IMG/VR virus record: IMGVR_UViG_3300036770_006054
Span: 1 to 35,473 of that record
DNA: 35,473 bases
Source: a virus
Reading direction: 5' to 3' (one strand)
Positions 3,326-23,886 of this stretch are shown piece by piece. A model generated the notes under the pieces. The model worked only from the letters and a program-made list of their open reading frames with translations. It made no database searches and had not been told where the DNA came from. The stretch's first letter is position 1, and each line of letters starts with the position of its first letter. The translations under genes and the position numbers were made by a program.

Positions 3326-3991
3326 TTATTCTTGGTTCTTAACTCGATCCCAGTAGGCATAATCAGGCTCTAGATAATCATCTAACTGTTTTTGATATGG
3401 GGGATTCTTCTTTAACCATGCCTCGAGCTGGCTGCGTCCTTTGTCCTGCATCTTCTTTATGTCAGGATTGAGATATCTTGTATTCTTTATGTGAACCAAA
3501 GGTCCATATTGCCTCAACCTAAACTGCCTAGCAAATTTGTAGATCCTGTTGGGTAGGTCCCTGTCACACTTGATCAGGTGCTGTGGCTTGGCCTGATCCA
3601 GTGTCACTGATTGATTGATAGTGAATCTATTGAAGTGTGGCCATTGTGCCATGACCTTGTCATTCTGCCACCATGCGTACCATGGCAGATTGATCATCCA
3701 TTCTCTAACACCACTCCACCATCGTTCCTGTGGTTCTCTGATCAAAGCGAACATCTCTGATTGATCCTTGTAAGTGTTTCCTGGTGTCTGCAGCTCTATG
3801 TTGCCATACTCGCGGATCAGCCATTTTCTAATAGTCCTGGCTGCGCAGCAGCTGATGTCCAGGTAGCGTATCCTGGTCTCTCCCGGCTGTGTAGACGTTT
3901 CCGGCAGTTGATAGATCAATGGTGTGGTCTCCCGCATCTTGCTTTCGGGGCCTAGTATGATCTGCAGTGTTTGTTCTATGGGTTCCGGCAT
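3326..3991 (-). CDS. Sulfotransferase-like P-loop protein
   Basis: A 221-residue protein resembling the Sulfotransfer_2 group. The segment IRYLDISCCAARTIRKWL (residues 41-58) sits where these enzymes have the strand plus 5'-phosphosulfate-binding loop, and FALIREPQERWWSGVREW (81-98) matches the 3'-phosphate-binding block (FxxxRdPxeRxxSg). The family transfers sulfate from PAPS to a hydroxyl group of a glycan or small molecule. The loop is atypical (CCAARTI), so the call is by overall layout. A TAAATA box lies 6 nt before the ATG. It begins a minus-strand unit just beyond the terminator at 4011-4048. Confidence 0.6.
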   Translation of the reverse strand: MPEPIEQTLQIILGPESKMRETTPLIYQLPETSTQPGETRIRYLDISCCAARTIRKWLIREYGNIELQTPGNTYKDQSEMFALIREPQERWWSGVREWMINLPWYAWWQNDKVMAQWPHFNRFTINQSVTLDQAKPQHLIKCDRDLPNRIYKFARQFRLRQYGPLVHIKNTRYLNPDIKKMQDKGRSQLEAWLKKNPPYQKQLDDYLEPDYAYWDRVKNQE

Positions 3992-5168: not shown

Positions 5169-5546
5169 TTAAGAATTGTCTAATTTGAGCTCGGTCTGAG
5201 AAACCACTGACAAGGAAACCGATTTACTGTTCACTCCCACGGTGTCGCCCATGGCTCTTATGGCCGCCTGCAGTGTGGCTGCTGTCCAACCAGATCTCTC
5301 CATGGAGATGTCTATCCTACCGGTAGCGGCATTGTCTATTCTTTGATACAGGATAGTTCCGCGTTCCAATATAGTTCTGATTAGATTATGCATGGTCTCA
5401 TTGAAATCTAACTCGGATCGTAGATCCAACACAGAACTGTCTGATTGCACAATAGTGATATGAAAGAACTGTACTTCGGCTCCGGCAAAATTGTCCGTGC
5501 TGCCGATGGCATTCGTAACTTTAAAATTCTTGGGCTCTATGGGCAT
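5169..5546 (-). CDS. Putative virion protein
   Basis: A 125-residue protein (MPIEPKNFKVTNAIGSTDNF...). It has a likely beta-strand-rich first half, a helix around residues 50-62 and a C-terminal TLQAAIRAMGDTVGVNSKSV segment resembling the C-terminal part of the 145-residue structural protein downstream. Its ATG shares one base with the stop of the cysteine-rich gene 5546-5674 (TAATG), so expression is coupled to it. Function unknown; possibly a virion component or its assembly partner. Confidence 0.6.
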   Translation of the reverse strand: MPIEPKNFKVTNAIGSTDNFAGAEVQFFHITIVQSDSSVLDLRSELDFNETMHNLIRTILERGTILYQRIDNAATGRIDISMERSGWTAATLQAAIRAMGDTVGVNSKSVSLSVVSQTELKLDNS

Positions 5547-5674
5547 TAGTTCTCTCCTCGCACTTCTTTATCTTGGCAGTGTTCACAAGCACAAGATCCG
5601 CATTCTTGACACTCAAAACATTCAGTTTTGCAATGATGTTCACAACTGCAACGTTCGCACACGCATTCTATCAT
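5546..5674 (-). CDS. Cysteine-rich mini-protein A (metallothionein-like)
   Basis: A 42-residue protein with 11 cysteines (positions 4, 6, 9, 11, 15, 19, 22, 25, 28, 30, 33) and three histidines, beginning MIECVCERCSCEHHC. CxC and CxxC pairs dominate, as in metallothioneins and zinc-cluster proteins. It is real rather than chance because the upstream protein B has the same cysteine spacing, its stop overlaps the next start (TAATG), and a CATAAATA box lies exactly 5 nt before the ATG. It probably binds zinc or another thiophilic metal in the cytoplasm or in the virion. No Shine-Dalgarno is visible. Confidence 0.75.
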   Translation of the reverse strand: MIECVCERCSCEHHCKTECFECQECGSCACEHCQDKEVRGEN

Positions 5675-5679
5675 GACAG

Positions 5680-5687
5680 TATTTATG
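5680..5687 (-). promoter_or_regulatory. Late-type promoter box CATAAATA, leaderless spacing
   Basis: Minus strand CATAAATA followed by CTGTC and the ATG of cysteine-rich protein A. A late transcript would begin at the start codon itself. Confidence 0.55.
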
Positions 5688-5698
5688 GATCTATCAAC

Positions 5699-5869
5699 TC
5701 AGCAAATCTGCATCGTAAATGGCAGGATTTTTTTGTGCAGACAAGGCCAGCAATCACAATCGGTGCATTCTTTACAATTGCCGCACAGTCTCTCATCACA
5801 GTGTGCAGCACAATGGCATTGATGACAACAGTCTCGATTGGAGTTTTCTTTTGTACTATTAGGATACAT
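5699..5869 (-). CDS. Cysteine-rich mini-protein B (paralogue of A)
   Basis: A 56-residue protein with 12 cysteines (14, 15, 18, 20, 24, 29, 32, 35, 38, 40, 43, 56). Residues 15-43 have the same spacing as residues 6-33 of protein A, except for one extra residue between the fifth and sixth shared ligands (Cys24 to Cys29, against Cys15 to Cys19). It ends 24 nt before protein A starts. The start is chosen at the only ATG upstream of the cysteine block; no clear ribosome-binding site is seen, and it diverges from the plus-strand gene at 5889. Likely a small metal-binding protein; metal identity unknown. Confidence 0.7.
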   Translation of the reverse strand: MYPNSTKENSNRDCCHQCHCAAHCDERLCGNCKECTDCDCWPCLHKKILPFTMQIC

Positions 5870-5888
5870 AATGTAGCAATACCTATAT

Positions 5889-6950
5889 GTGAATATTTAC
5901 CAAATGATTAAAAAGAACTTTTTTTTAACAGATCTAATGAAATTAGGAGATCACATAGCATTTGAAAATTTTATTAAATCTAATACATTAGAAGATCAAG
6001 AATCTGTTTTCACTGCAGATTATTATAGATTGCATACTTTCGAATTCAAAAAATTTCATAGAAAATTTGCCATTATTGATTACAGAGATCTTCATCGGGA
6101 AATATGGAATAACGAAGAATATCTTAAAGATTTTAATCACAGAATAGAAAAACTACATAATCTAGGTTTTATTTTCATAATAGGACATCCGTGGGAATCC
6201 ATGCAGAACGTGGAAAATTGGTTTAATATCGACAGAGTACTTGCAGATAAAAAATTTATACATTGGTCCGGGGGAACAAGCTGGTTTTGGCATATGATGT
6301 TTGAAAAACATCATGACAAGAATTATTATTTTGTTCATTCTGCTAAAAAATTTGATTTTTTATATCTTAACAAATATCCAAGAAAACACAGGATATTACT
6401 GTATAAGAAATTACATGAGAAAAAAATACTAGACAACAGTCTTTATACTTTCATAAGGCATAATAATCAAAGATTGCCCAAAGAATATGAATTACCTTAT
6501 ATTGACAATAAAAATTATCCCGATTACGGACTCGACCAAGAAATATTTGAATTGCCATATAACCACTCCGCTTATAATATTGTTTCTGAAACTAACGACA
6601 ATGATAATGACATATTCATGACTGAAAAAATATGGAAACCAATCATGGCAAAACAGCCATTCATTTTACATGGAAACCATTTATATTTAAAAAAATTAAA
6701 AGAACTAGGGTTTAAAACATTTGATAATGTTATAGATGAGTCGTATGATCTAGAAAAAGACAGAAACAAAAAAATAGAATTAATTACAAACTCTTGTCAA
6801 AAACTTTTAACAAAAGATTGGAAAAGTGTTTATGCTGATACTTTGGAACAGAGAGAACACAACTACAAGAATTTTTGGAGTAAAGAATCTTTAATAAAAG
6901 AAATTAATAAAACTATTTTAGGTTTTTTGGAATTTGCTGATCGCAGTTAG
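5889..6950 (+). CDS. Fucosyltransferase-like (GT10 C-terminal-like) protein
   Basis: About 350 residues, very AT-rich. The C-terminal third has the motif series MTEKIWKPIMAKQPFILHG, then a LKELGFKTF block and a VIDESYD block, resembling the donor-binding half of alpha-1,3-fucosyltransferases (TEK...KPI...P). The plus-strand protein at 17538-18485 carries the same series (KEAKPIVARRPFVIFG, LGFQSF, VIDESYD), so they are paralogues. It probably modifies a surface glycan of host or virion. The start is GTG at 5889 or ATG at 5904; neither has a Shine-Dalgarno. Its 3' end overlaps the convergent ligase-like gene by 33 nt. Confidence 0.55.
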   Translation: MNIYQMIKKNFFLTDLMKLGDHIAFENFIKSNTLEDQESVFTADYYRLHTFEFKKFHRKFAIIDYRDLHREIWNNEEYLKDFNHRIEKLHNLGFIFIIGHPWESMQNVENWFNIDRVLADKKFIHWSGGTSWFWHMMFEKHHDKNYYFVHSAKKFDFLYLNKYPRKHRILLYKKLHEKKILDNSLYTFIRHNNQRLPKEYELPYIDNKNYPDYGLDQEIFELPYNHSAYNIVSETNDNDNDIFMTEKIWKPIMAKQPFILHGNHLYLKKLKELGFKTFDNVIDESYDLEKDRNKKIELITNSCQKLLTKDWKSVYADTLEQREHNYKNFWSKESLIKEINKTILGFLEFADRS

Positions 6951-8135
6951 ATTTTTTCTGCTAAATCCCAATCGGTCTACTAACTTAACTGCATCTCCGG
7001 CTGTGCCCACTGCTACAAATCCTTCTGGATCAGTTACTTCTAATCCTGCATCTGTCTGTGCAAATGTGCCAATAGCTGTGGCTTTGTTTAATTTTGCTAG
7101 TGTTAAATTTTTAAGTGCAATAACTTCTTTGTAGAATGCCATCATGGCTGCTAATGGTTTTTGCATCTGTTTTAGGAACACAGGCATGTCTTTCATCTTC
7201 TGCTGTCTCAGTTGCAGAGCTTTCTGTGCTTTCAATCCTGCTGCCTGTTGTTGCATTCTGCCTTGATAAAACTGTGCAAAGTCTTTTAGATACTGGTTAG
7301 TATCTGTAGGTATTTTGCCCTGTCGTATTTGATCATTAATGAACAGCATGAAGAAAGGCAGGAAGTCTCGGTTCACTCCCAACATGGCAGAAAGATTAGT
7401 TGGCACTTTGCTCAGCAATGATTTTAACTGCTCTATGCCTGCTGTGAATTGTTGTTGCTCTTCTGCGGTGAAGTTGGCAGTGCCGCTGACATTTTTATAA
7501 GTGGCATTGTCAAACCACACATCCGGCGTGCGAGTGAATGACTCTACATCTGCACCATACTGAGCTTTTAGATTGGCTATGGTATCTCCTGTGTAGGTGG
7601 TATGGAATATCACTCCCACCTGTGCTGCGGCGATCTGTTTGCCTAGGTCGCTGTTATCAGGCACTGCGTATGTGATGGTGTTTGGTTTGAAAGTTATATA
7701 ATTCTCTCCTGACATGCTCTGTCTTGTGAGAGTATCTCTGTCAAACATGAAGTCACCCTGCACTATACCTTTGATGTTTAATTTTTCGAGATGCACCAGG
7801 CACTTCAATAATTTTTGTCCCAGATCATCTGTGCCGTGATTACGAGCAATGTCTTCTTTGGTGTAATTCAATTTGGGTGTCTTGGCAAATATACCTTTGG
7901 TGCCCACGAACCATCGGCCATTCTCAGGATTGATACCACACACTATGGCTGGTGCTCCGTCCCATTTAACTGACACGTTGATGGGTTGATCAGACGATCC
8001 TTGCAGTGTTTTTAGTATGCCTTGGAAATAATCTATCACCGCCTGGCCACCTGAGTGACCATCAGTTAGAATAATATCTTCTATGTGTTGCAGATGAGTT
8101 CTTTTAAACTCGTTGAGTACTTCTTCTATCAGCAT
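6918..8135 (-). CDS. Ligase/nucleotidyltransferase-like KxDG protein, conserved in T4-type marine phages
   Basis: A 405-residue protein. Residues 54-61 (VSVKWDGA) look like motif I of the ATP-grasping ligase/capping-enzyme superfamily, where the lysine (Lys57) is adenylylated. Other superfamily-like pieces follow in order: VQGDFMFD (125-132, motif III-like), DPEGFVAV (369-376, motif IV EGxV-like) and lysines 384 and 394 (motif V-like), with a helical insertion at about 255-350. Nothing else in the window is a replication gene, so the substrate is unknown. The ATG overlaps the stop of the 100-residue gene upstream (TAATG). The ligase call is by motif order only. Confidence 0.5.
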   Translation of the reverse strand: MLIEEVLNEFKRTHLQHIEDIILTDGHSGGQAVIDYFQGILKTLQGSSDQPINVSVKWDGAPAIVCGINPENGRWFVGTKGIFAKTPKLNYTKEDIARNHGTDDLGQKLLKCLVHLEKLNIKGIVQGDFMFDRDTLTRQSMSGENYITFKPNTITYAVPDNSDLGKQIAAAQVGVIFHTTYTGDTIANLKAQYGADVESFTRTPDVWFDNATYKNVSGTANFTAEEQQQFTAGIEQLKSLLSKVPTNLSAMLGVNRDFLPFFMLFINDQIRQGKIPTDTNQYLKDFAQFYQGRMQQQAAGLKAQKALQLRQQKMKDMPVFLKQMQKPLAAMMAFYKEVIALKNLTLAKLNKATAIGTFAQTDAGLEVTDPEGFVAVGTAGDAVKLVDRLGFSRKNLTAISKFQKT

Positions 8136-8450: not shown

Positions 8451-8505
8451 TTATAGTATAGCACAATAATGTGAGTTGTCTATGCTCAAAAATACCCATA
8501 TATTA

Positions 8506-8513
8506 GTTAAATA
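8506..8513 (+). promoter_or_regulatory. Late-type promoter box GTTAAATA before lipase
   Basis: Plus strand GTTAAATA, then CAGT, then ATG at 8518. It lies inside the longer open frame (TTG at 8476, ATG at 8482), which argues that 8518 is the working start. Confidence 0.45.
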
Positions 8514-8517
8514 CAGT

Positions 8518-9324
8518 ATGATTTCAAATTTGATACAAGAAGGTAAAACTCTAACCATACAAGAATTAGATGTGTATCAGCAGAGCTTACTATTTGCTGA
8601 ACTCAGCATGATAGCCTACAATTCAGACAAACAGGCCACAGCACAGGCCATGGAAATGGGATTCACAGCAGTGCATTTCTTTGATCACAAGGGTGCTCAA
8701 GGCTACACTTTTGAGACTGAACATGACCTAGTGGTTGCTTGTCGAGGCACAGAACCCACAGAATTCAATGATCTCAAAGCGGATATGAACGCACTGCCGG
8801 TTAAGAGTCAAACCATGGGCAGAGTACACAAAGGATTTAAATTGGAAGCAGATAAAATTTGGGCAGGTATCAAAGCACAGATAGAAAAATCAGAAAAAAT
8901 GACATGGTTCACTGGACACAGCTTAGGTGCTGCCATGACCACACTCTGCGCCGCAAGATGTTTTTATCATGCTCCACATATCGTTATTGGTGCCATATTC
9001 ACTTATGGTTCACCCAGAGCAGGTTGGAGAGGATTTGTTAATAACCTACATGTGCCACACTGGCGTTGGGTCAACAATGCCGATGCTGTGACCCGGGTGC
9101 CGTTAGCATCGATGGGCTATGTGCATCATGGAGATATAAGATACATCAACACCTTTGGCAATGTGAGAGAGTTCACATACTGGCAGAGAATCAAGGATAA
9201 GTTCCGAGGCATATGGAAGGGTCTAAAAAAACTGTCATTCAAGAACTTCAGTGATCACAGCATGACAAACTATGTGGCTCATATCGCTAAAAAGGTCAGC
9301 GGCGAAGAATATCCACAAGAATAA
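8518..9324 (+). CDS. Class 3 lipase (alpha/beta-hydrolase)
   Basis: A 268-residue protein of the fungal-type (class 3) lipase family. The nucleophile elbow is TGHSLGAA with Ser135, the acid is Asp189 in NNADAVTRVP, and the base is His247 in DHSMTNYV, all in the family order; the oxyanion segment VVACRGTEP precedes them. No signal peptide, so it acts inside the infected cell or is carried in the virion. It would hydrolyse lipid esters, perhaps in host membranes at lysis. The start at 8518 is chosen from the TAAATA box; ATG 8482 is an alternative. It ends one base before the convergent methyltransferase. Confidence 0.85.
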   Translation: MISNLIQEGKTLTIQELDVYQQSLLFAELSMIAYNSDKQATAQAMEMGFTAVHFFDHKGAQGYTFETEHDLVVACRGTEPTEFNDLKADMNALPVKSQTMGRVHKGFKLEADKIWAGIKAQIEKSEKMTWFTGHSLGAAMTTLCAARCFYHAPHIVIGAIFTYGSPRAGWRGFVNNLHVPHWRWVNNADAVTRVPLASMGYVHHGDIRYINTFGNVREFTYWQRIKDKFRGIWKGLKKLSFKNFSDHSMTNYVAHIAKKVSGEEYPQE

Positions 9325-9985: not shown

Positions 9986-10629
9986 GAGTCTATCAATGAT
10001 GCTTTTTTAGCTTGTTCGTCAAATTTTCCTTTATCTATGTCTTTTATATATTTGCTGTTGGAATCCTCTTTTAAATAATCATCTAACAGTGTCTTATGAT
10101 TATATGCTATTGGAAATCCTATTTGTTTGCTGACTATCTTGAGATAGTTAGATCCATAAAGAAAGAATAATTCCTGAGAGATAAAATATAAATCATTACA
10201 TAACGCATACAATTTCTCAAATTCAGTTAATGCTTCATTGTAAGTTTTTAGACCTCTCACACGTTTTTGTTGTAATTCTAAAATATTCCTATCCCTGCCT
10301 ATTATCACTGTAACTACATCTGCATATTTTTTAGCTTCTGTAATAAACTCTTGATATTTTGGTAGTTGTGGCTTCTTATCTTTATAGTAAGGACAAGATA
10401 TGCTAGTCACATAATGGGTGTTGTCCCATTTGAAATCTTTTAATAATGCTGGGTCTTGCCAGTACTTGTTAAATGGTTCTTGGTGATGTCCTTGCCACTC
10501 ATCTTTCATCATTACCCATCCTTCCACAGTAGGATGCATGCTGAATATTTTGGCAAATAGATGATTACCGGACCCTTGAGGTCCAGTAATAATCAAAAGT
10601 TTAGGTTTTATTTTTTCAATGTCTTCCAT
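9982..10629 (-). CDS. P-loop sulfotransferase-like protein
   Basis: A 215-residue protein. The N-terminus LLIITGPQGSGNHLFAKIF (11-29) is a phosphate-binding loop in the position of the PAPS loop of sulfotransferases, followed by SMHPTVEGW; VVTVIIGRDRNILEL later resembles the 3'-phosphate-binding R-D block. I place the start at 10629 because this is where the conserved sequence begins; the longer frame runs inside the transporter gene. It overlaps the transporter's end by 22 nt. A nucleotide kinase is the alternative. Confidence 0.6.
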   Translation of the reverse strand: MEDIEKIKPKLLIITGPQGSGNHLFAKIFSMHPTVEGWVMMKDEWQGHHQEPFNKYWQDPALLKDFKWDNTHYVTSISCPYYKDKKPQLPKYQEFITEAKKYADVVTVIIGRDRNILELQQKRVRGLKTYNEALTEFEKLYALCNDLYFISQELFFLYGSNYLKIVSKQIGFPIAYNHKTLLDDYLKEDSNSKYIKDIDKGKFDEQAKKASLIDS

Positions 10630-12050
10630 TGGCTTATCGCTAATACTAACACAATCGATCCAAAGATTGCAATCAATGTGCCTGCGAGATTTAATGCCAG
10701 TATTTTGTTTAGATTCCCATAAACAAATAAAGGCAATCCAATTGCTATGGCTATCAATATCCCCCAAAACATTCCTTGTTCTGATAACAGCGATGGTTTC
10801 ACTATGGCCAACATGCTTGGCAACCATACTGCGGCTCTAACTGTTGCGAAGAATAGAAAAATATGTAAAAGAGTAATACCTGGTATAAAAGCAATAGCTA
10901 ATCCTGCAATTGCCAAAACGATCATGCCTAACCTTGCATACTTAATCACTTGCTGATCATCTACCTTATTCTTGTATTTGTTGTAGATATCGTGTCCGGT
11001 CATGTTGGCCACACTGGCAAATTGAGAATCTAATATGCTGACTAATCCTGCGAATACAATCAAAACAAATAATATTGCTGCGGTTGCTGGAAGAAATTTT
11101 GCAATCACCACAGCATTCGTTGTTCCCGCGAGATTGGCAGGTATCTCCATGGCTGAACCAGCAGCCACAAAGCCCAATAGTCCCATCATGACAGGAATAA
11201 TTCCAAAAACAAAAGCAGCGATGATAAAAGATTTTAATACGCTCTCTTTTTTAATAGCAAACGCTCGTTGATAGAAACTGTTATCTCCCCACGGTCCTCC
11301 TAGATGTCCCAAGAATGCGGCAGCACCAAATGTTGCAAACACCATCCATGCTTTCTCTGTTCCAAAAATGTCAGCACCATCTTTTTTAATACCACCCAGC
11401 CCTGCTACCACTGTGTCCCATCCGCCTGCGGCATAAATCACTGCAGGTACTATGATTATAACACCTGTCCATACAACTAGTATTTTAAAAATTTCTGTTA
11501 TCACCGTGGCTTTCAATCCCGTGCGGAATGAATAAGTTAATGCTATCAATGCCATAGCTATGGCACTAATTTGATAAGGTATGCCAGTTAAAATCTCAAC
11601 TGTTTTGCTGCCAGCTAAGATATTGATGGCAAATGCACAGATAGCCAACACAATCATTTCTACTATATAAATGTTCTGCACTCTTGTGCTAAAACGTTCC
11701 TTTATAAATCCACTGAAAGTGAATCCATCTGGCATCTGTTGTTTTAATCTATTAGCAAAATATGCAAAGAATATCAGAGTAAGAAAATTACCTATGCAGA
11801 ACCAGAACAGTCCCACCAAGCCATTCTGATAGGCCTGCTGTGTAGATATAAACAGCCCGGGCGCCCAGAGCCATGCGGCTGCTATGCTCAATGATCCTTG
11901 GAAAGTGTTAAGCTCTCGCCTAGCTACTAGGAAACTGGTTTTATTATCGTTGTAGCCGCGGCTGTACCAATAGGTCAGTGCGAAAACTACCAATGCATAG
12001 ACCGCTAATATAGAGAAGCCGGTATCGATACCAAATAATGGTAAATTCAT
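10608..12050 (-). CDS. Na+/solute symporter, SSS family (DUR3/urea-permease-like)
   Basis: A full-length 480-residue inner-membrane protein with about 13 hydrophobic segments. The N-terminal region runs TSFLVARRELNTFQGSLSIA, then AAAWLWAPGLFISTQQAYQN and GLVGLFWFCIGNF, closely following the layout of the DUR3 urea/polyamine branch (WxWAxxL...AYxxGxxGxFWxxxG). Later segments include TGLKATVITEIFK and the conserved VSILDSQFASVANMTGHDIY, the Na+-site helix of the SSS family. Ribosome-binding site AGGAG, 7 nt from ATG; TATAAT at 12065-12070 on this strand could be a -10 box. The solute is inferred. No frameshift or truncation is seen, so it is probably functional. Confidence 0.85.
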   Translation of the reverse strand: MNLPLFGIDTGFSILAVYALVVFALTYWYSRGYNDNKTSFLVARRELNTFQGSLSIAAAWLWAPGLFISTQQAYQNGLVGLFWFCIGNFLTLIFFAYFANRLKQQMPDGFTFSGFIKERFSTRVQNIYIVEMIVLAICAFAINILAGSKTVEILTGIPYQISAIAMALIALTYSFRTGLKATVITEIFKILVVWTGVIIIVPAVIYAAGGWDTVVAGLGGIKKDGADIFGTEKAWMVFATFGAAAFLGHLGGPWGDNSFYQRAFAIKKESVLKSFIIAAFVFGIIPVMMGLLGFVAAGSAMEIPANLAGTTNAVVIAKFLPATAAILFVLIVFAGLVSILDSQFASVANMTGHDIYNKYKNKVDDQQVIKYARLGMIVLAIAGLAIAFIPGITLLHIFLFFATVRAAVWLPSMLAIVKPSLLSEQGMFWGILIAIAIGLPLFVYGNLNKILALNLAGTLIAIFGSIVLVLAISQWKTLKK

Positions 12051-15388: not shown

Positions 15389-15396
15389 TATTTATC
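15389..15396 (-). promoter_or_regulatory. Late-type promoter box GATAAATA
   Basis: Minus strand GATAAATA, then 8 nt, then ATG at 15380. It overlaps the stop codon of the upstream gene; the transcript would have a leader of at most a few bases. Confidence 0.45.
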
Positions 15397-16606
15397 TAGT
15401 ATCTCCATAATATATTACCCTGTACTTTTTATTTTTAAAACATCTCCATGGATCTATTATTGTGTTGCCTATTACAGGCCGAAAATACAACTTTTGCTCA
15501 TATTTTTTGCCTGTGTGGTCAAATGTTGTTTGAGGATCATGGGCCAGCACACACACGCAGTCTATTTCTTGATCAACGTTATCACCAGTTTCAATATCTG
15601 CATACATAATTTTTATGCCCAGCTCCTTGAGATAATATCCTAACAACAATGATGGGGAACCTGTGGTATATGGAACTGAGGGTTTATAGGCTCTGCCATT
15701 TATCACACAGGGCTTATTCTCTCTATGACACACATCGGCAATAAATTTGGCCATGTTGCGAGTTTGCTGTTCTCGGCTGTGAGATATTGCGGCAAAAAGA
15801 TCATATCCTAAATCCAATTCTTTTGCTAGCCAGCTGAGTGCTATGTTGTCTCTAGGATGGCAAGCACCACCGTCACCCATGCCTGCTTTATAATATCCTT
15901 TGCCTGTGATCCTAACAGAGGCTTTTTTAAATGCATCTGTGATCTTGTCCACATTCATGTGTCCAATTTTCTGTGCCACATCTTGAATCATGTTAACCAA
16001 TGATAGTCGAGCTGATATCATTGTGTTGTAGAATATCTTAAATCCTTCTGCTTCTTCCCAAGTGCCAGTCATCTGCTGAGCATTGTTTAATATCAGTTTC
16101 TTATAGAATTTAGACAGGAGCTGGCTCGCTATTGTGTCTTCTCCATGTTCAGTTCCTATGATCACCATGTCCGGATGTACCATGTCATAGGCTTCGGATC
16201 CCATGGCGATTAGATAAGGATTGTAAACGAATTGAAAGTTTCTAGTGTATCGAGCAAATTCTCTGCGTGTGGTACCTGGTAGCACTGTGCTGATCAATGA
16301 CACTATCTGATTTTTATTGGCATATCGTTGACATTGTTTAAGGACATCAATCACTAATGAATAATCAAAATCTTTCACTGCTAGTTGTGTGGTGGGCTTG
16401 GATCCATCATAATCAGGATGATGAGGAGTAGGTACGGCTATAAATATTATTTCTGTGTCTTTAAAAACTTCTCGTATGTCTTGTGTTATTTTAACGTGTG
16501 CAGATACTCTGTGTTCCACGTCATATCCTATCACTTCGTGCTGTCTTGACATCTCTTCGGCACAGGGCAAGCCCAACTTGCCAAGACCTATAAATCCTAT
16601 TCGCAT
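15392..16606 (-). CDS. UDP-glucose/GDP-mannose dehydrogenase family protein
   Basis: A 404-residue protein. Residues 4-12 (GFIGLGKLG) are the NAD-binding GxGxxG fold, IIFIAVPTP (53-61) is the usual second nucleotide-binding strand, and GMGDGGACHPRDN (242-254) holds the catalytic cysteine Cys249, matching the family GxGxGGxCxPKD. The C-terminal UDP-binding domain has INGRAYKP (KPxx-type). The family oxidises a UDP- or GDP-sugar at C6 to its uronic acid using two NAD+. The ATG overlaps the amidinotransferase end by 10 nt, so the two are coupled. Likely to modify a surface glycan; exact sugar unknown. Confidence 0.85.
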   Translation of the reverse strand: MRIGFIGLGKLGLPCAEEMSRQHEVIGYDVEHRVSAHVKITQDIREVFKDTEIIFIAVPTPHHPDYDGSKPTTQLAVKDFDYSLVIDVLKQCQRYANKNQIVSLISTVLPGTTRREFARYTRNFQFVYNPYLIAMGSEAYDMVHPDMVIIGTEHGEDTIASQLLSKFYKKLILNNAQQMTGTWEEAEGFKIFYNTMISARLSLVNMIQDVAQKIGHMNVDKITDAFKKASVRITGKGYYKAGMGDGGACHPRDNIALSWLAKELDLGYDLFAAISHSREQQTRNMAKFIADVCHRENKPCVINGRAYKPSVPYTTGSPSLLLGYYLKELGIKIMYADIETGDNVDQEIDCVCVLAHDPQTTFDHTGKKYEQKLYFRPVIGNTIIDPWRCFKNKKYRVIYYGDTR

Positions 16607-19212: not shown

Positions 19213-20276
19213 TACCTGTTAAGGGCTATTGCACATTCCATCCCCTCAAAACCTGTTTAGTTGGTGATGTATTTCCTGTTGAAAAGTTTTCACATTTAAA
19301 AGATGATAGAATACTATCGCCATTGGCAAGAGTAATAGATGAAACTCGAGAAGATTTAGAAAATCTATCTGATACGTTAAAAACGTTTGGTGTGGAAGTG
19401 CATCGTCCTAACATGGAGGATACTCCTGTGGATCTATCTACCTATGCTCGTAAACCACCACAGCAAACTCGCGATGACATGGCTATTGTGGGGGAGAATT
19501 GCTATGTTGCAAACAATCTACCAGAGTACCGTCACATATTCAATCAAATACAGACTGATAAATTATTTTTTCCAAAGCAATACATGGATTATTCTGATCC
19601 AAGTTATACCTATGACATGAATATTAATGGTACACAGACTCCGGATCAACAGCGATTGCTCAGCACATCATTTATACATCTATTAGGCAAAGATTTATTT
19701 TGGGGTACTAATCAACCTAGGTGGAAAGACTCTCCAATAATACAATATCATAAACAGAAATGGGAATTGGAGGGGTTTCGTGTCCATGTACAGGCTACAG
19801 AAGAGATGGGCGGACACGGCGATGCCACTTGGTGTATTCTAAAACCAGGGGTGATAGTCACCCTACATGACCTACAGAATTATGAGGAAAAGTTTCCAGG
19901 ATGGGATATACTTTATTTGGAAGACAAGTATTGGGATCAGTTATCTCCTTTCCGTACTATGAAAAAGAAAGTGGGCGGCAAATGGTGGATACAGGGAGAA
20001 GAGCACAACGATCAACTGATTAATTATGTTGAGAGTTGGTTGAGCAGTTGGGTAGGTTATTGCGAAGAGACTGTGTTCGAAGTCAACATGTTGAGCATCA
20101 ATCCAGAGTTGGTGTTGGTCAACAATTACAATCAGAAAGTTTTTGATTTTTTAAAGAAACATCGGATAGAGCCCGTGGTATGCTCACAGAGACATCGTTG
20201 GTTTTGGGATGGTGGTGTGCATTGTCTAACACAAGATCTATATCGAGAAGGACAACAGAATGACTATTTTGAATAG
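19209..20276 (+). CDS. Amidinotransferase, copy 2
   Basis: A 355-residue protein with the same catalytic layout as copy 1: QQTRDDMAIVG (Asp89), MGGHGDATWCIL (His203-Asp205) and WDGGVHCLTQDL with the nucleophile Cys339. It is 50 residues longer, with an insertion of about 60 residues between the first and second motifs. The end overlaps the radical SAM gene, so the pair is co-translated. The neighbourhood suggests synthesis of a guanidino-modified metabolite or peptide; the acceptor is unknown. Confidence 0.85.
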   Translation: MIPVKGYCTFHPLKTCLVGDVFPVEKFSHLKDDRILSPLARVIDETREDLENLSDTLKTFGVEVHRPNMEDTPVDLSTYARKPPQQTRDDMAIVGENCYVANNLPEYRHIFNQIQTDKLFFPKQYMDYSDPSYTYDMNINGTQTPDQQRLLSTSFIHLLGKDLFWGTNQPRWKDSPIIQYHKQKWELEGFRVHVQATEEMGGHGDATWCILKPGVIVTLHDLQNYEEKFPGWDILYLEDKYWDQLSPFRTMKKKVGGKWWIQGEEHNDQLINYVESWLSSWVGYCEETVFEVNMLSINPELVLVNNYNQKVFDFLKKHRIEPVVCSQRHRWFWDGGVHCLTQDLYREGQQNDYFE

Positions 20277-21135
20277 AAATATAAATTACAAAAGCATGAA
20301 ATTCTCTCTTCCTTTCTTAGAAATAATGCTGTTGCGTTCTTGCAATCTAAGCTGTCACGGTTGCACTACATTCAGTGATCTCAAACATCAAGGCGATTAT
20401 TCGGATTGGGAGACTAATCGACAATGGTTGATAAATTGGTCTCAAAGACTAAACATAGAAGCCATAGGATTGATGGGTGGAGAGCCATTGATACATCCTC
20501 GCATAAGAGATTGGTTATTGGGCATAAGAGAGACACTTCCTGGTGCTCAAATAAGATTTGTGACCAATGGATTGCTATTAGAAAAACACATAGACATCAT
20601 AGATGTGTTGTATGAACTAGGACATAGCGTTCTTAAGATCAGTGTCCATGTGGAAGATGATAAAATAAATCGCATGGTGAAATACATAATGAATCGTTTT
20701 GATTGGCGTCCAGTCACAGAATTTAATATTAATAGATGGAGTACTGATAATGAATTTAAGTTTCAAATAAACTGTCCAGAAAGATTCTTTAAAACATTCC
20801 GTGGATCTTATAACGATATGCTGCCACATGACAATGATCCTCGAGATGCATTCTCACTCTGTGTACAGAAAAAATGCCCGTTGTTGTTTAATGGCAATTT
20901 GTTCAAGTGTGGTACAGCGGCATTGACTCCCCCGATGTTGGAGCGTAAGAAGAATACTCATATAGATCTTTGGAAAAATTATATCACCAATGGTATATCA
21001 TCAGATTGTTCAGAACAAGAGCTAGAACAGTTTATCAATAACTTTGGTAAACCTCACTCTATCTGTAGACAATGTCCATCAGAGCGGGATTTAGAATCCA
21101 TTATAGATCATAGAAAGAATGTTGAATATAAATAA
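20260..21135 (+). CDS. Radical SAM enzyme
   Basis: A 291-residue protein. CNLSCHGC (Cys28, 32, 35) is the CxxxCxxC site for the 4Fe-4S cluster that binds SAM; GLMGGEPLIHP is the GGE motif, and IRFVTNGLLLEKH follows. The C-terminus has further cysteines (CVQKKCPLLFNGNLFKCG and CRQCPS) that could bind an auxiliary cluster as in SPASM proteins. Start at 20260 chosen because AAGGA lies 7 nt upstream; MKFSLPF at 20296 has none. Overlaps copy 2 of the amidinotransferase. Likely acts on the same pathway. Confidence 0.85.
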   Translation: MTILNRNINYKSMKFSLPFLEIMLLRSCNLSCHGCTTFSDLKHQGDYSDWETNRQWLINWSQRLNIEAIGLMGGEPLIHPRIRDWLLGIRETLPGAQIRFVTNGLLLEKHIDIIDVLYELGHSVLKISVHVEDDKINRMVKYIMNRFDWRPVTEFNINRWSTDNEFKFQINCPERFFKTFRGSYNDMLPHDNDPRDAFSLCVQKKCPLLFNGNLFKCGTAALTPPMLERKKNTHIDLWKNYITNGISSDCSEQELEQFINNFGKPHSICRQCPSERDLESIIDHRKNVEYK

Positions 21136-21331
21136 TTAAGATAGAAATTCTACGACAAAGTCCAAATAGTTATTTTTCCTTCTTAAAAATTTTCAATGCC
21201 AAAATATCTGCAATCATTTTGATTTTATGACTTTTTAATAACAATAGATTTAGAATGAATTGGTGAATTGTGTTTCTAAAGATTTAAAATGGAATGGCTC
21301 GCTATTAACAAAGCTGGCTCGCTATTGGGTT
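21136..21331. repeat. Non-coding stretch with a tandem 12-nt repeat
   Basis: AT-rich, no supportable gene. TGGCTCGCTATT occurs at 21295-21306 and again at 21315-21326, just beyond the stop codon of the minus-strand gene at 21332. A 16-nt version (AGCTGGCTCGCTATTG) also occurs inside the sugar dehydrogenase gene at 16119-16134. Origin unknown. Confidence 0.6.
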
Positions 21332-21583
21332 TTATGATTTTACTCTTTTGGCAGAATAGTCTGGCAGTGGTCCACCATATTTTCGTCCCTTGATCCTTTT
21401 TCCACCCACTGTTTGAGTTCTACCATGTATTTTTTCTTTGCGATGACCGGAGCGTTTCATTTTTCCCTGTGATTTACAAGACGACACCCACGATGCCGGC
21501 AGACTGCTTTTGGGTCTGCTACAAGCACCACGTGGTGCTGGTCCTATAGCTTCTGTGGGCAGACATATTTCACGAATCTTCAT
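21332..21583 (-). CDS. Basic small protein, possible head-internal protein
   Basis: An 83-residue basic protein (MKIREICLPTEAIGPAPRGA...; later VGGKRIKGRKYGGPLPDYS). The start at 21583 is chosen because a TAAATA box lies 5 nt upstream; the ATG two codons earlier falls inside the expected transcript start. The lysine/arginine/glycine composition suits DNA association. The first nine residues resemble those of the divergent neighbour MKIAEIIQP, and a similar C-terminal GGPLPDY block seems familiar from marine phages, but this is memory only. Confidence 0.55.
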   Translation of the reverse strand: MKIREICLPTEAIGPAPRGACSRPKSSLPASWVSSCKSQGKMKRSGHRKEKIHGRTQTVGGKRIKGRKYGGPLPDYSAKRVKS

Positions 21584-21588
21584 ACTCA

Positions 21589-21596
21589 TATTTAAT
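21589..21596 (-). promoter_or_regulatory. Late-type promoter box ATTAAATA, leaderless spacing
   Basis: Minus strand TAAATA, then TGAGT, then ATG at 21583, identical over 14 nt to the plus-strand site at 17527. Confidence 0.55.
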
Positions 21597-21676
21597 CCTT
21601 TGCTGTGAGTTGATCACGGCTTTATAGTTGTATATGCTATGCCTTTTCATATACATATACAGCTAATTTAATATCG

Positions 21677-21701
21677 GTTATCAGTTATATACCGTGATAA
21701 C
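21677..21701. promoter_or_regulatory. Inverted repeat in divergent intergenic region
   Basis: GTTATCA and TGATAAC (7 bp, 11-nt spacer) in the middle of the 190-nt region between two divergent late genes (21597-21760). GTATATG/CATATAC repeats occur nearby at 21635-21660. No gene is seen here. Could be an operator; no T-run. Confidence 0.35.
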
Positions 21702-21760
21702 TTTAAGTACATCAGCATCGGGTACTGTTGAGTTTTCATCTGTTCGGCGTGTATCAGTTC

Positions 21761-21768
21761 CATAAATA
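21761..21768 (+). promoter_or_regulatory. Late-type promoter box CATAAATA, leaderless spacing
   Basis: Plus strand CATAAATA, then CCAGT, then ATG at 21774. Same octamer as at 5680-5687 and the best example of the box-to-ATG geometry. Confidence 0.6.
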
Positions 21769-21773
21769 CCAGT

Positions 21774-22190
21774 ATGAAGATTGCAGAAATCATACAACCA
21801 AAAACTCCAAGTGCCATCAACTCGTCTGTGACACAAGAAATTGTGCCACAAGATATAGCGTCAGAAGGTTGTGTGTCGGCCATAGCAGAAGCTATCTCTC
21901 AAATCTATAGACGAGCCAAAGGGGGAAAGTTAAAAACTGGGTTCCGCTGTACTTCAGGCCCGCGACGAGGCAGGATTGTGGCCAAGCCCTCTACCTGTAA
22001 TGCTCGATTGAATCCCGTCAAGGGAGCAAAAATTCGACTGAAGAGGCAGGCCAAAGCTTCTCAAGCTGGAGTCAAAATGGCATTCACGAAAAGAGCTTCG
22101 GCTGGCTCCAAGAGGTTAAAAGGGTTGCAGGTGAGCAAAAAAAGCCGAGCCCTACAGAAGAGTAAGATAATCAAGCCCAAAAAGAAATAA
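21774..22190 (+). CDS. Strongly basic protein, possible head-internal or DNA-binding protein
   Basis: A 138-residue protein: a 50-residue ordinary N-terminus beginning MKIAEIIQPKTPS, then an almost entirely basic stretch (residues 48-138, with FRCTSGPRRGRIVAKPSTC and repeated KRASAGSKRLKGL-type segments) ending KIIKPKKK. It has two cysteines (59, 69) in the basic part. No Shine-Dalgarno; the TAAATA box 5 nt upstream suggests a leaderless late transcript. Composition fits a protein packaged with DNA. It diverges from the other basic late gene at 21583. Confidence 0.6.
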   Translation: MKIAEIIQPKTPSAINSSVTQEIVPQDIASEGCVSAIAEAISQIYRRAKGGKLKTGFRCTSGPRRGRIVAKPSTCNARLNPVKGAKIRLKRQAKASQAGVKMAFTKRASAGSKRLKGLQVSKKSRALQKSKIIKPKKK

Positions 22191-22284
22191 GCATTCAAAT
22201 TCAAAGACTTAAATGAAAGATCTGAAGTGATCAGGCATGATCTGGTTATGCACAGATTGACCTATACAGGATATAATATAAAGT

Positions 22285-22530
22285 ATGAGTATGATCAGCG
22301 ATACAAAAATATTGTCTATTGATGAAATCTATGAGCAGATACTGGAGAGCTATTTCCGCGGTGAGCTCACTGAAGGTGAGTGGATGATGAATCCAAATAA
22401 GGTTGTTCAAGTATTTGAAACCGAATGCCTAAAACACGGTCACGGGGTAGCAGACTATACTTTATATAATGCCAGCCTTGCAGATGAGTGTGAATGTCAT
22501 TTAGATAAATTAAAAACAAAATTTATATAA
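22285..22530 (+). CDS. Small acidic hypothetical protein
   Basis: An 81-residue helical-looking protein (MSMISDTKILSIDEIYEQIL...) with a C-terminal CLKHGHG...DECECHLD stretch. TATAAT at 22272-22277 lies 7 nt before the ATG, so the transcript probably has almost no leader; a TTGACC upstream is too close (9 nt) to be its -35. ATG 22291 is an alternative start. Function unknown. Confidence 0.5.
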   Translation: MSMISDTKILSIDEIYEQILESYFRGELTEGEWMMNPNKVVQVFETECLKHGHGVADYTLYNASLADECECHLDKLKTKFI

Positions 22531-22533
22531 TAA

Positions 22534-22539
22534 TAAGTA
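22534..22539 (+). promoter_or_regulatory. Variant late-type box TAAGTA
   Basis: AATAAGTA, then TCTAT, then ATG at 22545: the same variant and spacing as before the DUF1178 gene (14009-14014). Confidence 0.35.
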
Positions 22540-22544
22540 TCTAT

Positions 22545-22757
22545 ATGGACATCATCAGTATCGTCACCGGTATCCTAAGTTGGCTACAGGTCAGCATGGG
22601 CCAGGCTTCTGTCACAGCAGGCACAATCTATCAGGGAGCGGTTGTGATTGACAAAGTGACCACAGAGGACTTTCGTGGTACATGGACAGCAGAATTGCAA
22701 GAGCAAGGAAAACAAATCATTCAGGGCTTCGTGGTCAGTGTAAATGAAAAAGAATAA
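22545..22757 (+). CDS. Small hypothetical protein
   Basis: A 70-residue protein with a hydrophobic N-terminus (MDIISIVTGILSWLQVSMGQ) that may be a weak membrane segment or signal, followed by a polar Thr/Gln-rich part. Its 3' end overlaps the radical SAM gene by 14 nt. Unknown function. Confidence 0.5.
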   Translation: MDIISIVTGILSWLQVSMGQASVTAGTIYQGAVVIDKVTTEDFRGTWTAELQEQGKQIIQGFVVSVNEKE

Positions 22758-23886
22758 AATAGAAAATTTCTGTTATAATGCTTTTTTAGGATTAGACATT
22801 TCACCCAGCGGTGATTTAAAACCATGTTGTAAGTATCAAGATAAATCTATACCTAAATTCAATATACTTCAAGGTATCGCCGCCTACAGGGATAGCGAAT
22901 TTTTAAAAGATCTTCAAAATCAATTCTTAAATAATAGTAGGCCTGCAGGTTGTATTCGTTGCTGGCAGGAAGAAGACGCTGGAATAAAGAGCAAAAGGCA
23001 ATTGGATTATGAACGACACAGTGATTCTTTTGACCAGCACGATATTAAAAAAACAGAGTTTAAAAATATTAGTTTAGCATTTGGTAATCTATGTAATCTT
23101 GCTTGTAGAATTTGCGGACCAGGTAGCAGTTCTAAATGGGCATCGGAAATGAAAAAGATGGATGGAAAAGACTATCCTATACATGATTGGTTCCGTGGCC
23201 CAAAAGCCATGTTGGATATAATAGAGAACACTCAACAAGCTATTCATTTTGATATACCAGGAGGAGAGCCATTGTTAGTGGACATACAAGAACATTTTAT
23301 TTTTTTAGAAAATTTAAAAAATAATGGATCTTCTAAAAATATTAGCCTACACTATACAACCAATGGAACTAATTATCCTATAGATAAAAATTTAGAAATA
23401 TGGAAGGCATTTCGAGAAATAGATATACAGATCAGCATAGACGACATCAAAGAAAGATTTGAATATAATAGATGGCCGGCCAAATGGGACACAGTTTATA
23501 AAAACATCAAAAAGTTTCAAAGACTAAAAGATCAAGAGAAGAATATTAAATTGAGCATATCTTTCACAGTCTCGGCCTTCACTATACTATATGCCGATGA
23601 ATTTTATTCTTGGTGTTTATCTGAAGGATTGCCAAAGCCCTGGCTAGGTAGATTACATAATCCATTTCATTATAGGTGTTCTATTTTTCCTACAGATGTT
23701 AAAAACAAAATAAAGAAGAAATTAATGTCTTCAAAATTTTTTGAAATAAGAAAATTATCTAAATATTTAGAACTAGATGACGATAAATATTTTGATGATT
23801 TTAAAAAATGGATTGATCTGTTAGATTCTAAAAGAGATCAAAATTTTTACAGGACATTCTCAGAGCTTTCGGAATTAATATTATGA
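22744..23886 (+). CDS. Radical SAM 'twitch' protein
   Basis: A 380-residue AT-rich gene. The N-terminus holds an auxiliary-cluster segment (Cys10, Cys28-Cys29, Cys70 and Cys73 in AGCIRCWQEE), and CNLACRIC (Cys117, 121, 124) is the SAM-binding 4Fe-4S site, followed by IPGGEPLLV. This N-terminal twitch plus radical SAM order is typical of a group found in marine T4-type phages; substrate unknown. The partial gene at 1-94 is a homologue with the same C-x17-CC spacing. It overlaps genes on both sides. Confidence 0.85.
   Translation: MKKNKIENFCYNAFLGLDISPSGDLKPCCKYQDKSIPKFNILQGIAAYRDSEFLKDLQNQFLNNSRPAGCIRCWQEEDAGIKSKRQLDYERHSDSFDQHDIKKTEFKNISLAFGNLCNLACRICGPGSSSKWASEMKKMDGKDYPIHDWFRGPKAMLDIIENTQQAIHFDIPGGEPLLVDIQEHFIFLENLKNNGSSKNISLHYTTNGTNYPIDKNLEIWKAFREIDIQISIDDIKERFEYNRWPAKWDTVYKNIKKFQRLKDQEKNIKLSISFTVSAFTILYADEFYSWCLSEGLPKPWLGRLHNPFHYRCSIFPTDVKNKIKKKLMSSKFFEIRKLSKYLELDDDKYFDDFKKWIDLLDSKRDQNFYRTFSELSELIL

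Follow-up and report, generated by a model that had tools for sequence, protein, structure and literature searches.

Metal-thiolate modules and the phage ladder

The domains of animal metallothioneins hold their metal ions in M3Cys9 or M4Cys11 clusters, and the Zn3Cys9 modules of the CXC/pre-SET type are compact structural units, each built around a thiolate cluster with three zinc ions. The CCHC zinc knuckle of the retroviral nucleocapsid has the spacing C-x2-C-x4-H-x4-C, and the proteins that carry it are basic. The 2[4Fe-4S] ferredoxins are recognized by the spacing CxxCxxCxxxCP. SmtA and other bacterial metallothioneins are folded proteins, with ligands provided by both Cys and His (PMC10612145).

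The subject of this report is a pair of genes, A and B, in the window, the whole stretch of DNA analysed, which is a 35,473-base IMG/VR virus record from an uncultured marine T4-like phage. Both encode mini-proteins with the cysteine ladder C-x2-C-x-C-x3-C-x3/4-C-x2-C-x2-C-x2-C-x-C-x2-C. Like the prokaryotic metallothioneins SmtA and BmtA (PF02069), the phage proteins are small and Cys-rich, combine Cys with His, contain CxC and CxxC motifs, and could plausibly hold a zinc cluster with a finger-like half. They differ in having another ladder, in matching no profile, in being apparently restricted to phages, and in the setting of their genes, which are found near late virion and FkbM genes and not near metal regulators. 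In number of cysteines and module length the ladder is comparable to the animal domains, from which it is set apart by the dominance of CxxC, an invariant His, and conserved non-Cys residues. The likeness to the Zn3Cys9 modules is one of idea, as no sequence or structural match was found. The zinc-knuckle spacing, formed by C1, C2, the His, and C5 of the ladder, is embedded N-terminally in nearly every member (114 of the 122 distinct cores listed have exactly C-x2-C-x4-H-x4-C and 8 have x5 in place of the second x4; ORF A has x4, ORF B x5), whereas the phage ladder has seven further cysteines, lacks a match to the Pfam CCHC zinc-knuckle family at E values up to 10, and is found in an acidic protein in the case of window A. 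The ferredoxin spacing CxxCxxCxxxC is replaced by CxxCxxCxxCxCxxC in all ladder members listed.

Two hidden genes on the minus strand

The ladder genes and the frames that touch them are as follows.

5546 to 5674, minus strand: ORF A, A-type ladder; ATG start, 42 aa, 11 Cys, ladder C6-C33 with His14
5699 to 5869, minus strand: ORF B, B-type ladder; ATG start, 56 aa, 12 Cys, ladder C15-C43 with His23
5169 to 5546, minus strand: 125-aa gene (cluster c15), downstream of A, with a one-base overlap with the A stop
5573 to 5911, plus strand: overlapping frame of 112 aa, TTG its only start, which overlaps both A and B

An initial sequence-only reading had proposed this tandem pair of Cys-rich minus-strand ORFs, and their coordinates and translations bear it out. 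The cysteines are located at positions 4, 6, 9, 11, 15, 19, 22, 25, 28, 30, and 33 of A (26% of residues, with one aromatic) and at 14, 15, 18, 20, 24, 29, 32, 35, 38, 40, 43, and 56 of B (21%, with three aromatics). From C6 the gaps in A are 3-2-4-4-3-3-3-2-3 and from C15 those in B are 3-2-4-5-3-3-3-2-3, which agrees with the claim of a common ten-cysteine ladder bar one extra residue. When both proteins were shuffled with their composition preserved and one single-residue shift was allowed, ten matched cysteines arose in 2 of 200,000 shuffles, a chance of about 1e-5. Within the window A and B are 34% identical. The expected sharing of a stop/start base is also found, base 5546 belonging both to the A stop, TAA at 5548-5546, and to the ATG that opens the 125-aa gene (TAATG).

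A and B are genuine, hidden, conserved genes. Across 11 A genes from the window clade and its nearest kin, the minus-strand frame of A has a pN/pS of 0.25 with saturated synonymous sites, whereas the other five frames over A give values of 0.41-1.49 and mostly contain stops. In the ladder the ligand codons vary synonymously without the residue ever being altered (pN 0, pS 0.75), and the non-ligand positions have a pN/pS of 0.16 in the A-type and 0.46 in the B-type. For B, comparison of the 29 core codons of the window with those of a related locus, L067, reveals nine synonymous-only and seven nonsynonymous codon differences, with every ligand kept. Loss of the minus-strand frames in relatives, or conservation of the plus-strand frame instead, had been named as grounds for abandoning the proposal; the opposite is seen, in that the minus-strand frame is kept while stops occur in the plus-strand frame and its substitutions are unconstrained. 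There is accordingly next to no probability in the view that A and B are chance frames antisense to a real plus-strand gene, a view prompted by the 112-aa frame that overlaps both: the ladder is conserved in more than 100 phage contigs, and synonymous change is saturated in the minus frame while the antisense frames show stops and weak or no constraint. This refutes the artefact for A, and B is backed by L067 and the B-type family. As a candidate for the real gene, the plus-strand frame is ruled out by the frame-by-frame substitution pattern and by its stops in relatives.

The earlier claim that selection acts on metal ligands is therefore correct insofar as the ladder is under purifying selection and not a product of chance, but "ligands only" is too narrow, since the A-type non-ligand pN/pS is 0.16 and the alignment contains an invariant His together with near-invariant Glu, Asp, and Pro residues. 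Similarly, the statement that the residues between the cysteines differ holds only in part, as several non-Cys positions are conserved and the His before the fourth Cys is invariant.

A family with two types

Searching related phages with the cysteine pattern had been suggested as a check, and in IMG/VR it recovered a family with at least 122 distinct core peptides over all loci, every one of those listed having His just before the fourth Cys. Scans for the exact Cys ladder, in which His was not part of the pattern and from which many raw matches in TG-rich low-complexity DNA were removed, yielded at least 45 loci with at least 54 clean ladder ORFs, including A and B of the window. The His precedes the fourth Cys in all 54 ORFs from the scans without a His requirement, and its invariance there is independent evidence because it was absent from those patterns. 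Conversely, the ten cysteines are invariant partly by construction, having been required in the search patterns, which does not apply to the His or to the constraint on non-ligand positions. A profile scan with A identified at least 203 encoding stretches related to it, and a later scan with the His required in the pattern brought in further lineages. All of these counts are lower bounds and carry some query bias.

The members fall into two types. The A-type core reads CExCxCE(Q/H)HC...C(T/F)ECxxC(P/G)(D/S)CxCxxC and the B-type core CHRCxCxPHC...CxNCExCxxCDCxxC. Relatives of A are 62-81% identical to it, and B is 60% identical to the B of L067 over 43 residues; a related-locus search with the window B as query found no relatives, and several close relatives of the window are without B. 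In tandem pairs the order is B then A in all of at least 26 distinct pairs, and in L073 the two are fused into a single 75-aa protein. A and B look like two ancient paralogous types rather than a recent duplication, as they are only 34% identical and yet each is nearer to its own type elsewhere (up to 81% for A, and 60% for B with L067).

Searches against known families

The belief that the proteins match no known family is supported by profile searches. Ladder proteins matched no family in Pfam; nine of them did not match PF02069, the prokaryotic metallothionein family, at E values up to 10, while the control SmtA scored 4.5e-21. Members of the A1 set had no match in NCBIfam, the 65 members of the A3 set had no significant match in PHROGs v4 (best E 0.0096, for one member only), and A and B had none in PADLOC. 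A profile search of the PDB with the ladder gave nothing significant, the top entries being retroviral zinc-knuckle (NC) proteins at E 0.28 or worse. An AlphaFold model of A (pLDDT 79.8, pTM 0.51) returned no structural match in Foldseek/VIA, as is expected for a protein of only 42 residues.

Cultured phages searched by tblastn with A, a B-type protein, and the fused pair gave no match, although the low-complexity filter may hide some; nor was there any DNA match to the B-A-FkbM region, or any match to the ladder pattern, with up to three mismatches, in three cultured T4-like genomes. The open-access literature searched contained nothing relevant on phage or viral metallothioneins, which may be described elsewhere. 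On the present sequence comparisons the ladder family appears to belong to phages only, the bacterial and archaeal scan having covered A-type patterns. A bacterial origin was rejected, as the sole match in that A-type scan, L287, is a 20-residue chance match inside an 1846-aa protein.

Gene neighbourhood

Two further genes of the window serve to place the locus.

6918 to 8135, minus strand: DUF6267 (PF19782) T4-like marine phage protein; profile match 6e-109, a synteny marker
5904 to 6947, plus strand: predicted GT-B-fold glycosyltransferase-like gene, 348 aa, divergent; kept beside the ladder in most relatives

The DUF6267 protein is at most 40% identical to those of Pelagibacter phage HTVC008M, Methylophilales phage Melnitz, and cyanophages, and it is these relatives that place the window near the T4-like marine phages; no close cultured relative of the ladder neighbourhood was found. 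The glycosyltransferase-like protein (AlphaFold pLDDT 93.6) finds its best PDB matches among GT-B glycosyltransferases, but these are weak and have low TM-scores: SdgB glycosyltransferase at E 6e-4, and fucosyltransferases at E of about 6e-3.

The commonest gene order among ladder loci is DUF6267, an optional radical SAM gene, the divergent glycosyltransferase-like gene on the opposite strand, c3, B, A, an FkbM methyltransferase (PF05050, 1.6e-16), and duplicated head or decoration-like genes. Here c3 is a 200-aa gene that heads the ladder operon and has a late box before it. The ladder occupies its place, between c3 and FkbM or equivalent, in 53 of 65 distinct c3 loci, plus L372; in 11 of the 65, or about one in six, FkbM directly follows c3 with no trace of a ladder. 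In most loci FkbM lies just downstream of the ladder and often overlaps it, and in L040 and L419 FkbM carries a B-type ladder fused at its N-terminus. The window clade lacks both FkbM and c3, and ladders without FkbM are also found in L067, L022, and many further loci. Relatives of the 125-aa c15 gene hold the same position, adjoining decoration-like gene families. Elsewhere the ladder comes directly after a long gene of virion or tail-fibre-like character, with nucleotide-sugar genes alongside (L061, L412), lies near terminase and nuclease genes (L050, L409, L454), or precedes a radical SAM gene (L046) or another methyltransferase (L450). The labels "decoration-like" and "tail-fibre-like" reflect where the genes lie and the character of their sequences rather than any profile match. 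The neighbourhood in relatives supports the late, virion-type setting that had been proposed.

Two minor observations concern this region. The c3 of L058 (2168-2767, minus strand) has its only cultured-phage relative in the Agrobacterium jumbo phage Atu_ph07 (27%, E 1e-11), a hint of deeper kinship for this uncultured phage group. In L068 a second, partly degenerate A-type ladder frame (3761-3865, minus strand) overlaps the 3' end of FkbM, as though a copy of the cassette had been placed on the far side of that gene.

The late-promoter-like box

5680 to 5687, minus strand: CATAAATA, a box resembling T4-type late promoters, with exactly 5 nt between its end and the A start codon

The late box anticipated upstream of A is thus present, as CATAAATA at 5687-5680, and most close relatives carry TATAAATA or AATAAATA at this position. 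The arrangement NATAAATA-5 nt-ATG is the commonest spacing both in the window clade (11 of 32, mostly before A) and in other ladder phages (23 of 61, mostly before c3), and it occurs in none of 10 cases in three cultured T4-like loci. The sharp, recurrent spacing suggests leaderless late mRNAs in these phages; by analogy with T4 late promoters, transcription would start at or next to the start codon. The box and the neighbouring genes together point to a late timing for the expression of A and B. The related arrangement (T/A/C)(A/T)TAAATA-5 nt-ATG is also observed in the window at 21761-21768 (plus strand) and 21596-21589 (minus strand), and heads c3 genes in L015, L018, L053, L104, and others.

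Possible functions

The best explanation, to which we assign a probability of about 0.6, is that A and B are phage-only, paralogous, folded, metal-binding mini-proteins, probably for zinc, that are made late and act as accessories to virion assembly or surface modification. Each protein would be a single module some 28-29 residues long, C-x2-C-x-C-x2-H-C-x3/4-C-x2-C-x2-C-x2-C-x-C-x2-C, in which ten Cys thiolates and the His imidazole may wrap a small metal-thiolate cluster, most likely of three to four Zn(II) in the geometry proposed, with the zinc-knuckle spacing embedded in the N-terminal half. Produced late in infection, alongside the virion and virion-decorating genes, the proteins would most likely act as small, stable zinc modules that either dock onto late enzymes or virion parts or hold and deliver zinc. 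We infer metal binding from ligand conservation, as well as the identity of the metal, probably zinc, and the number of ions. A metal-thiolate cluster protein is indicated by the invariant set of ten Cys and one His, the codon-level constraint, and the tiny size; a folded module with a partner is favoured over a loose chelator by the non-ligand constraint, the existence of two types, and the fusion to an enzyme; and a single obligatory partner is disfavoured by the many gene contexts, the clean absences of the ladder, and the FkbM-free window clade. Together these points led to the choice of a late, folded zinc mini-protein, with metal buffering as the main rival.

According to that rival, which we consider unlikely though a serious contender, the proteins are metallothioneins proper that buffer free Zn, Cu, or Cd, and so hold metal, protect the phage programme, or supply late proteins with zinc. 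A and B have the attributes by which metallothioneins are broadly defined, being of 42-56 aa with a high Cys content, CxC and CxxC motifs, and few aromatics, and ligand conservation suggests that they may bind several d10 metal ions in metal-thiolate clusters. Moreover, the module stands alone in many gene contexts, as a self-sufficient chelator might, and the folded state and mixed Cys and His ligands of SmtA also count for this reading. Set against it are the silence of PF02069, the fact that the linked genes are virion and FkbM genes, not metal transporters or regulators, and the strong non-ligand constraint and two specialised types, which argue for a defined binding surface. The resemblance to metallothioneins that had been noted therefore stands for size, composition, and motifs but does not extend to PF02069, and a metallothionein function is conjectural; the ladder family is best read as metallothionein-like in chemistry without being a member of the prokaryotic family. 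Somewhat less probable again is a dedicated zinc adaptor for FkbM, and for the glycosyltransferase-like neighbour, which would methylate or glycosylate polymers of the virion or host surface. The frequent juxtaposition and overlap with FkbM, the fusions in L040 and L419, and the other methyltransferase that the ladder precedes in L450 are in keeping with such a role, which is hard to reconcile with the 11 c3 loci that have FkbM and no ladder and with the many loci, the window among them, that have a ladder and no FkbM.

The CxxCxxC runs, and the radical SAM genes near some ladders (c14, and the gene directly after the ladder in L046), could suggest an iron-sulfur mini-protein, ferredoxin-like or a radical SAM auxiliary, instead of a zinc protein. 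We regard this as improbable, as the ladder has CxxCxxCxxC and not the ferredoxin spacing, an invariant His and ten Cys within about 28 residues better suit Zn-thiolate clusters, and most loci lack an adjacent radical SAM gene. More improbable still is a Cys-rich, RiPP-like precursor peptide acted upon by phage radical SAM enzymes, for although two such genes are present elsewhere in the window (20260-23886) and one lies beside some ladders, there is no leader peptide architecture, and the ladder and His are equally invariant in phages without an adjacent radical SAM gene.

A broader version of the late, folded zinc mini-protein can be offered tentatively, in which the ladder is a mobile zinc-cluster mini-domain cassette of marine T4-like phages, occurring singly, as a B-A pair, or fused to an enzyme, that has no cellular homologue and serves as a docking module for virion-decorating enzymes. 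Whatever its role, the ladder defines an unnamed, well-conserved family of putative metal-binding mini-proteins, of a kind that gene-finding programs may miss; it occurs in hundreds of marine phage contigs and lies outside the Pfam, NCBIfam, PHROG, and PADLOC libraries. If zinc is bound, a dedicated metal module takes part in late infection by these phages, which would be relevant to zinc-poor surface oceans and to the modification of virions by phages. Function can be approached directly through the fixed order of B and A, their fusion into one protein, and the fusion to FkbM.

Other genes of the window

The two radical SAM proteins of the window are encoded at 20260-21135 and 22744-23886 (both plus strand), and in some relatives (L046, L015, L068) the ladder has a radical SAM gene, such as c14, as a neighbour. 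A UDP-glucose/GDP-mannose dehydrogenase (15392-16606, minus strand; PF03721, 2e-20) fits the theme of glycan modification. The window also encodes a sodium:solute symporter (10608-12050, minus strand; SSF, PF00474, 2e-24), which corresponds to PHROG 20720, where its function is not annotated, and a class 3 lipase domain protein with a TTG start (8476-9324, plus strand; PF01764, 2e-16) that is conserved in L067.
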